Assembly (NCBI GenBank): GCA_030038365.1
Contig: JASHPA010000023.1
Location: 1-32,033, forward strand
Direction of reading: 5' to 3'
Source of the DNA: Nitrososphaerales archaeon
GTDB lineage: Archaea; Thermoproteota; Nitrososphaeria; Nitrososphaerales; Gagatemarchaeaceae
Length of the DNA: 32,033 nucleotides
Under the pieces are notes generated by a model. It worked only from the letters and a program-made list of their open reading frames with translations, was not told where the DNA came from and searched no databases. Of the stretch, positions 3,872 through 7,520 are shown piece by piece; positions within the stretch are counted from its first letter, which is position 1, and each line of letters opens with the position of its first letter. Position numbers and translations under genes: made by a program.

Positions 3872-4729
3872 ATGTATGATTTCGATTCGTTGATGGATGA
3901 GGTCCTCAGGAACAGGTCCGAGCTCACGAGGGAGGAAGTCATGAGCATGATCGAAGAGAAGAAGCGGACCGTGGGCGCGGGTTTCCTCACAGACCAGGGC
4001 GCTCTGTTTCTCATAGCCGGAGAACTCGGCGTCCAGCTGCAGCATATGACCACCACCGACCTAACCATCAAGGACCTCTATGTGGGCGCGAATGACATCA
4101 CGATAGTGGCGAGGGTCTTGGCTGTCTACCCTGTTTCTGAGTACAAGAGGAAGAAGGATGGAGAAACGGGCAGGTACAGGCGGCTCGTTCTCTTCGACAG
4201 GAGCGGGACGTCGAAGCTCACGATATGGGATGACAACCCCGAGGCGATAAATCTGACCGAGATATCCGTCGACACCCCGGTAAGAGTGCTGAATGGCTAT
4301 GTCAGGCAGGGATTCGATGGAAAACCGAACTTGAATCTGGGAAGGAAGGGGAAAATCGAGGTCTTGAAGGAGGAGAAGCTCGTTTCGAGAATGCCTCCGA
4401 TTTCGAGCTTGTCGAAGAGTCTCCTCGAGATTGGGGGACTACGTGAGCTTGTTGCTGTGGAGGGCCTGGTACTTAGCGAGAGCAGGAGTTCCACCTTCAC
4501 AAGACAAGACGGCTCGGGTGGATCGTTGACGCAGTTTGACCTAGGTGATTCTTCTGCGAAGGAGAAGGTGAGAATAGTCATCTGGAACGCCATCGGCATT
4601 GACGCCAAGCCTGGTCAGAGGGTTCTCGTCACGAACCTAAGGTTGAAGACAAGTGTGAATGGTGGGCACGAACTGCACGGAGACAGTGGGAGCTCGGTGA
4701 GAATCTGGAATGAAAAGTCGCGGGCTTAG
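3872..4729 (+). CDS. Archaeal RPA-like single-stranded DNA-binding protein
   Basis: This 285-residue protein has the N-terminal helical module typical of archaeal replication protein A. It reads VGAGFLTDQGALFLIAGELGV at residues 35-55, ahead of two OB folds at about residues 65-170 and 185-280. The first OB fold contains RRLVLFDRSGTSKLTIWDD and the second LTQFDLGDSSAKEKVRIVIWN, both typical strand patterns. No zinc finger is seen. It should coat single-stranded DNA in replication and repair, in keeping with PolD, Cdc6 and Dpo4 in the same window. Its last 4 nt overlap the stop of a small convergent membrane-protein gene. Confidence 0.88.
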   Translation: MYDFDSLMDEVLRNRSELTREEVMSMIEEKKRTVGAGFLTDQGALFLIAGELGVQLQHMTTTDLTIKDLYVGANDITIVARVLAVYPVSEYKRKKDGETGRYRRLVLFDRSGTSKLTIWDDNPEAINLTEISVDTPVRVLNGYVRQGFDGKPNLNLGRKGKIEVLKEEKLVSRMPPISSLSKSLLEIGGLRELVAVEGLVLSESRSSTFTRQDGSGGSLTQFDLGDSSAKEKVRIVIWNAIGIDAKPGQRVLVTNLRLKTSVNGGHELHGDSGSSVRIWNEKSRA

Positions 4730-4860
4730 CCTTGGTTCTTCGGTCTTCTGAGTACCTCGTATTCGTACACGAAGATTACGGCAAGGGTGATGACGAACAG
4801 TGTTATCATGGTCCCGCTAAGGAAGTTGTAGTAGCTGGTAGTGCTCAGTAGTGGAATCAT
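4726..4860 (-). CDS. Small single-helix membrane protein (44 aa)
   Basis: The frame continues upstream into the tRNA-Met gene, so I take the ATG at 4858-4860 as the start. The product is 44 residues with one clear membrane helix (MITLFVITLAVIFVYEYEVL) and a basic tail (RRPKNQG). A TATA-like element, CCTTATACC on the minus strand, lies about 30 nt upstream between the tRNA and the ATG. The stop overlaps the RPA-like gene by 4 nt, tail to tail. The function is unknown. Confidence 0.5.
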   Translation of the reverse strand: MIPLLSTTSYYNFLSGTMITLFVITLAVIFVYEYEVLRRPKNQG

Positions 4861-4906: not shown

Positions 4907-5041
4907 TGCCGGGGGCGGGATTCTCGTCTGTTCCTTCTTTCGAGCCCGCGACCTCCGGATATCGCATCTCGCTTGGGATTATGAGTTTCGCCCACCTAAG
5001 GGTCGTGCCCGGCGCAATAAGCCAAGCTATGCTACCCCGGC
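4907..5041 (-). tRNA. Elongator tRNA-Met(CAT) with three introns
   Basis: The 135-nt gene has acceptor GCCGGGG/CCCCGGC, discriminator A, and T-stem GCGGG/CCCGC. Three insertions must go. (1) 4987-5008, 22 nt, BHB helix CGCC/GGCG, cuts GG|G and AA|A, position 30/31. (2) 4961-4979, 19 nt, canonical 37/38, ambiguous by 4 nt and with one mismatch in the central helix. (3) 4921-4938, 18 nt, in the T-loop at 59/60, BHB helix CTCG/CGAG, cuts AA|A and AA|T. The product is 76 nt with perfect anticodon arm CCGGA-CTCATAA-TCCGG. The GCCGGGG acceptor suits the elongator; the CAT anticodon alone does not exclude tRNA-Ile2. T-loop base 54 is C instead of T. Confidence 0.87.
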
Positions 5042-5065
5042 ACGTGCCGGCCGGCGTTGTATTGT

Positions 5066-5073
5066 CTTTTAAA
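5066..5073 (-). promoter_or_regulatory. TATA-like box of tRNA-Met
   Basis: ATTTAAAAG on the minus strand lies 25-32 nt upstream of the first base of tRNA-Met. Confidence 0.6.
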
Positions 5074-5183: not shown

Positions 5184-5269
5184 GCCTCGGTAGCTCAGCC
5201 TGGTAGAGCACTGCCTTGGTAATGAATCCAAATAGGCAGGGGTCCCGGGATCAAATCCCGGCCGAGGCT
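5184..5269 (+). tRNA. tRNA-Thr(GGT) with one canonical intron
   Basis: The acceptor stem is GCCTCGG/CCGAGGC and the discriminator is T. The anticodon stem CTGCC/GGCAG holds loop TTGGTAA once a 12-nt intron (5222-5233, ATGAATCCAAAT) is removed. The intron is at the standard 37/38 site, with a perfect central helix TTGG/CCAA. The mature length is 74 nt. It is the only interrupted tRNA in the window with just a single conventional intron. Confidence 0.95.
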
Positions 5270-7300: not shown

Positions 7301-7386
7301 AGATTGTCCACCCGCTGCCGGCAATCTGTCCCATCGACGGGCTCTTGACTGACAATGGTTGATTAGCTCACCCATTGTCAGATTTT
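7301..7386 (+). other. Three consecutive hairpins ending in a T-run; candidate small RNA
   Basis: AGATTG/CAATCT (7301-7306 with 7322-7327) is followed by CCC/GGG (7330-7332 with 7339-7341). Next is a perfect 10-bp inverted repeat, CTGACAATGG with CCATTGTCAG (7349-7358 and 7372-7381), and then ATTTTT. A stem followed by T residues resembles a 3' end of a plus-strand transcript. No clear TATA box was found upstream. The 10-bp repeat could equally be an operator. Confidence 0.35.
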
Positions 7387-7484
7387 TCATCTTGGGTATT
7401 CCTTAATCTTTAGCGCAGTAGCGCCCTTACTATCAGAACAGGCAGTCTTTCTCAGGCGTTGATGGTACGATTTCCAAGCCCAAT

Positions 7485-7494
7485 GATTAATTAG
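7485..7494 (+). promoter_or_regulatory. TATA-like box of the UPF0148-like gene
   Basis: GATTAATTAG is centred about 32 nt before the ATG at 7521. Confidence 0.45.
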
Positions 7495-7520
7495 GGACAT
7501 AGGCGGCGAAAGCCATCCTG

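Follow-up and report, generated by a model that had tools for sequence, protein, structure and literature searches.

The window, a 32,033-nucleotide stretch of DNA from an archaeon of the Gagatemarchaeaceae, very probably contains a functional elongator tRNA-Met(CAU) gene whose three introns would be cut out by the tRNA splicing endonuclease. The family, formerly group I.1c, belongs to the Thaumarchaeota (PMC10640624); the main text of the cited paper never uses the word "intron". The genus of the window organism includes Ca. Gagatemarchaeum stordalenia bog_1369 (G001), and the source assembly is a draft with a completeness of 88% that totals 2.3 Mb across 216 contigs. It is established that an archaeal tRNA gene can have two or three introns, T-loop introns included (PMC4390854, PMC6379350, PMC3293823), and the tRNAscan-SE 2.0 survey gives up to three introns per archaeal gene and 107 non-canonical introns in the tRNAs of Thaumarchaeota (PMC8450103). 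As triple-intron archaeal tRNAs are already known, the window gene is not a new kind of gene. Together with its homologs, however, it forms a natural series in which one essential tRNA has from one to four introns in closely related soil and groundwater archaea, and such a series is useful for studying the gain and loss of introns, why tRNAs with several introns are kept, and the order of use of overlapping splice motifs.

Gene layout and identity

The gene lies on the minus strand in the order GCCGGGGTAGCATAGCTTGGCTTATTGCGCCGG-[22]-ACTCATA-[19]-ATCCGGAGGTCGCGGGCTCGAA-[18]-TCCCGCCCCCGGCA, where the bracketed numbers are intron lengths in nt (Table 1), and removal of the three introns gives a 76-nt tRNA with a CAU anticodon and a standard cloverleaf. 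A sequence-only reading had placed a tRNA-Met gene interrupted by three introns at exactly these coordinates, leaving the strand unstated; the solver, the stems and the homologs all support it, and the intron lengths, sites and product length that it gave were reproduced by both the parser and the generic solver. The perfect anticodon stem that it expected after intron removal is present, all five pairs being intact among the 20 of 20 stem pairs checked (acceptor 7, D 3, anticodon 5, T 5). It had also named an intact tRNA-Met elsewhere in the genome as an observation that would speak against it; a search with the mature sequence found an uninterrupted elongator copy neither in the window genome (88% complete) nor in any of nine relatives, the complete G013 included, and the window gene is thus the only elongator tRNA-Met gene found. 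Read on the plus strand, positions 4907-5041 formed a hairpin and no tRNA. The 5' end of the gene is overlapped by a perfect 14-bp palindrome, CCGGCACGTGCCGG (5037-5050).

Table 1. Parts of the elongator tRNA-Met gene and the element upstream of it, in window positions
Feature	Positions	Strand	Details	Basis
Elongator tRNA-Met(CAU) gene	4907..5041	-	G1 = 5041, discriminator A73 = 4907	solver, comparison, homologs
TATA-box-like element	5066..5073	-	TTTAAAAG, 25-32 nt upstream of G1 (~28)	
Exon 1	5009..5041	-	tRNA positions 1-30	solver; separate BLAST piece
Intron 1	4987..5008	-	22 nt, at 30/31, GCACGACCCTTAGGTGGGCGAA, H helix CGCC/GGCG, h' CAC/GTG	parser, solver
Exon 2	4980..4986	-	positions 31-37, ACTCATA, anticodon CAT	solver
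Intron 2	4961..4979	-	19 nt, at 37/38, ATCCCAAGCGAGATGCGAT, H helix CTCA/TGCG 3/4, outer helix = anticodon stem	parser, solver, folding costs
Exon 3	4939..4960	-	positions 38-59	solver
Intron 3	4921..4938	-	18 nt, T-loop at 59/60, AGAAGGAACAGACGAGAA, H helix CTCG/CGAG, outer helix = T-stem	parser, solver, covariation
Exon 4	4907..4920	-	positions 60-73	solver

The generic solver for cloverleaf and BHB was given the gene ends alone, with no knowledge of tRNA-Met; it collects every candidate intron that has a BHB-like H helix and then scores the spliced cloverleaf. Its top solution was the same three introns, with a score of 21.05, and none of 2000 dinucleotide shuffles of the gene interior, with the acceptor stem kept, reached that value (mean 13.5, maximum 20.15). 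The folding energy of the whole precursor is unremarkable (z -0.6). Neither ARAGORN nor the Rfam tRNA model at its gathering cut-off detected the gene. Common tRNA finders can miss multi-intron genes, and tRNA-Met may therefore look absent from these genomes. An A+T box like TTTAAAAG is found at about equal distance in most relatives, despite the divergence of the remaining upstream DNA.

The anticodon letters are identical to those of tRNA-Ile2 (CAU, agmatidine-modified), and the gene could be taken for that tRNA, but the same genome has a separate Ile2-like CAU gene with a GGGCCCG acceptor (L166, G000:C14:2090-2430), which also parses with three introns, in the D-loop, at 37/38 and in the variable region. 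Furthermore, the exons of the window gene fit archaeal elongator tRNA-Met, with a GCCGGGG acceptor and a ACTCATAATC arm, and we regard tRNA-Ile2 as a very unlikely identity. Initiator-like tRNA genes are separate as well, in the relatives G001 and G017 (L232, L246). With Ile2 and initiator excluded, and given the general features of archaeal tRNA-Met, the window gene is assigned by its sequence to elongator tRNA-Met. A decaying pseudogene that merely resembles an intron-bearing tRNA would agree with the failure of ARAGORN and Rfam to find the gene, and with C54 standing in the T-loop in place of T54. C54 is however present also in intron-free homologs, and a decaying gene would hardly keep every checked stem pair intact once spliced, conserved exons, H helices that covary across diverged species and a promoter-like box, in a genome where, as in nine relatives, no other copy was found; such decay is highly improbable.

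A real gene with splice sites that are off by one or a few nucleotides, or with only two introns removed, is unlikely too. The repeats at the intron borders permit one-base shifts and in several relatives 38/39 fits better than 37/38, but border shifts of this kind leave the mature tRNA unchanged, and the two-intron alternatives for the window gene reach a cloverleaf score of only 23.4 vs 27.1 and do not have the CAT anticodon in place. Permuted and trans-split tRNA genes are known in some Archaea (PMC3218864), but here the exons follow one another in the usual order on a single strand, all of them within 135 nt and downstream of one TATA-like box, and a permuted or trans-split gene is so improbable as to be negligible. 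The most rational explanation thus continues to be an elongator tRNA-Met gene with three introns.

Splice motifs, endonuclease and order of splicing

Each of the three introns has a BHB motif, in which 3-nt bulges flank an H helix of four positions formed by exon and intron. The motif at 30/31 has the HBh' form, with an H helix of 4/4 (CGCC/GGCG), an h' of 3 bp and an outer helix of just 1 bp. That at 59/60 is of the hBH form without h', and its H helix, also 4/4 (CTCG/CGAG), stands on the 5-bp T-stem and includes C54. The motif at 37/38 takes the hBH form once the 30/31 intron is removed, when the 5-bp anticodon stem becomes available as its outer helix; its H helix is 3/4, with a T33-C mismatch that is retained in many relatives. 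The remark of the sequence-only reading that the T-loop C54 takes part in a 4-bp BHB helix was correct.

Between the homologs, H-helix bases on the exon side covary with those on the intron side. At 30/31 the variants are CGCC/GGCG, TGCC/GGCA and CACC/GGTG (exon/intron; swaps of C-G with T-A and of G-C with A-T), at 45/46, a further site used in relatives, CCGG/CCGG, CTGG/CCAG and CCGA/TCGG (a swap of C-G with T-A), and at 59/60 CTCG/CGAG, CTCA/TGAG, TGCG/CGCA and CGCG/CGCG. When the intron sides were dealt randomly among the genes, the observed pairing was reached in 0 of 2000 trials at each of these three sites, the related genes not being independent of each other. Intron ends were chosen partly by their BHB fit, which biases pairing percentages upward. 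The exon side at 37/38 (CTCA, in the anticodon loop) is invariant and uninformative for covariation. As the two sides covary at 30/31, 45/46 and 59/60, comparison of the sequences indicates that the BHB helices at these sites are real and under selection.

Endonucleases of the (αβ)2 type, found in Crenarchaeota and Thaumarchaeota, accompany relaxed motifs and multiple introns (PMC4090602), and a Lys in the Crenarchaea-specific loop is required for the broad substrate range (PMC6379350). Each of the seven relatives in the same genus has two or more PF01974 matches, and across the relatives in the family two genes are the rule. The alpha subunit of G010 aligns with Aeropyrum pernix EndA (3p1z_B) at 150 bits; it has the active-site His and Lys, and K44 (numbering read from the alignment) aligns in the loop. 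By homology, the relatives encode an (αβ)2-type endonuclease that keeps the crenarchaeal loop Lys, which would permit relaxed motifs. The window genome has a beta-like gene (L001) without the catalytic His, and a catalytic alpha gene was not found in its 88%-complete assembly; because two or more matches are present in every one of the seven congeneric relatives, we read this as a probable gap in the assembly.

For every partly spliced state we computed what it costs to form each motif at 25 C; the energies are approximate. The 59/60 motif costs ~0 kcal/mol in every state, and since it stands on the T-stem, the T-loop intron could be removed at any stage. With the 30/31 intron present, the 37/38 motif lacks an outer helix and costs 8.4 kcal/mol via a weak inner helix, against 3.8 kcal/mol after removal of that intron, and the 30/31 motif costs 4.8 kcal/mol in the full transcript vs 10.9 if the 37/38 intron is already gone. 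It had been suggested from the sequence that the BHBs of the first two introns form in sequence, and the modelled structures agree: as the 37/38 motif is without an outer helix until the 30/31 intron is removed, the 30/31 intron is probably excised before the 37/38 intron. In the four-intron gene of G010 the 37/38 motif costs 4.7 with 30/31 and 45/46 gone vs 13.5, while in G013 it is not clearly easier. We hypothesize that the transcript with its three introns would be cut by the tRNA splicing endonuclease, that loss of the 30/31 intron would let the anticodon stem form and serve as outer helix for the 37/38 motif, and that the 37/38 intron would then follow; the T-loop intron would be excised independently, and the exons would be joined to a normal 76-nt tRNA.

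Intron sets in the relatives

Relatives were parsed by a BHB-aware parser and cross-checked with the generic solver; the three-intron parses of L032 and L008 come from the Met-specific parser alone, and the parses of L141 and of the first copy of L076 were discarded for broken stems. A strict pattern matched the gene in 27 of 46 Gagatemarchaeaceae genomes. Intron positions are shared between the homologs and exons are conserved, while the introns themselves have diverged. The 30/31 intron is present in 107 parsed homologs, mostly of Thaumarchaeota and including almost all the thaumarchaeal homologs recovered; it is common to Nitrosopumilus and Nitrosotalea, and being so widespread it is therefore old. 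Most of the other thaumarchaeal homologs have it alone, whereas in the Gagatemarchaeaceae it is joined by different combinations of introns at 37/38 (or 38/39), 45/46 and 59/60: 30/31, 37/38 and 59/60 in the window gene, G001 and G003; 30/31, 38/39 and 45/46 in G008 and G016; two introns each in G009 and G011; and four, at 30/31, 37/38, 45/46 and 59/60, in G007, G010, G013 and L114 (NC_groundwater_1049). The G013 genome consists of one 1.5-Mb contig and is rated 100% complete; G007 (palsa_1368) is congeneric with the window organism. The 45/46 intron varies within this one genus, being present in G007 and absent from G000 (the window genome), G001 and G003, and it has therefore been gained or lost recently.

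Some parses are less clear-cut. For L011 the penalised solver slightly favours two introns (20.25 vs 19.85 for four), but the four-intron parse has the best cloverleaf (27.1 vs 24.5) and the right anticodon, and L009 shows the same pattern (solver 20.4 vs 19.3, cloverleaf 24.3 vs 26.7). An Asgard elongator tRNA-Met, in Odinarchaeia RPA3 (L071, about 7336-7514), parses with introns at 30/31, 37/38, ~45/46 and 59/60; its support is weaker, and judging from this parse it probably carries four introns.

Exon bases 40-43 take part in the 45/46 motif of the four-intron genes, and bases 25-28 in their 30/31 motif. Both motifs thereby compete with the anticodon stem needed by the 37/38 motif, which suggests that the 37/38 intron is spliced last. 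On balance we lean towards the view that the tRNA-Met genes of close relatives carry four introns, more than the three-intron maximum of the surveys compared, that they would follow a pathway with 37/38 last, and that the T-loop intron may hold or shift usually invariant letters of the T-loop (C54; G55 in G017 and G018).

Triple-intron tRNAs of Pyrobaculum, tRNA-Glu(UUC) of P. calidifontis and tRNA-Pro(UGG) of P. islandicum, resemble the window gene in having three BHB introns at both canonical and non-canonical positions, and their lineage likewise has an (αβ)2-type endonuclease (PMC4390854), but they are other tRNAs and belong to hyperthermophilic Crenarchaeota, whereas the window gene is from soil Thaumarchaeota. 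The tRNA-Thr(GGU) of Caldiarchaeum, with introns at 24/25 and 45/46, shares the multiple introns, the 45/46 site and a recent gain or loss between close relatives, but has only two introns and is linked to an integrated element (PMC3293823). Atabeyarchaeia and Freyarchaeia are soil archaea of the Asgard lineage, for which the main text of a 2024 study reports multiple, often non-canonical introns, with multiple introns in over half of the tRNA genes (PMC11291895). The comparison is with that main text, and as the per-gene intron numbers sit in its supplement, priority for the four-intron genes of the relatives is unproven.

G016 has two near-identical copies of the tRNA-Met gene (C191 and C211; L024, L007), with a compensated T-stem difference (GTGGG/CCCAC vs GCGGG/CCCGC). 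In G041 there are two different elongator-Met-like genes (C33 and C107; L208, L227), of GCCGGGG and GCCGAGG types, in what could be a mixed bin. U55 of the T-loop is nearly universal, and T-loop letters are usually invariant. The T-loops of L014, L015 and L019 (G017, G018, G021) read CGCGAAT or TGCGAAT, without U55; the odd loop is paired with the intron in L014 and L015, and it persists in L019, where the intron is absent.

Other tRNA loci and surroundings

The window genome is rich in introns: among its other tRNA loci, taken as Rfam hits, 16 of 24 parse with them. No intron similarity clearly above shuffles, as intron transposition among the tRNAs of the window genome would leave, was found; the best likeness, of intron 2 to the tRNA-Trp intron, was equalled in 31 of 500 shuffles. 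Two near-identical tRNA-Ile(GAT) genes in this assembly (L160 and L161; G000:C85 and C153) have the same D-loop intron and similar flanks. Beside the tRNA-Met gene, positions 5184-5269 (plus strand) give an Rfam tRNA match and no ARAGORN call, and are probably a tRNA-Thr(GGT) with a short intron. Directly downstream lies a 44-codon open reading frame for a small membrane protein (MITLFVITLAVIFVYEYEVLRRPK..., 4726-4860, minus strand), and a reading frame resembling it is found 3' of the tRNA in G009 and G008 as well.
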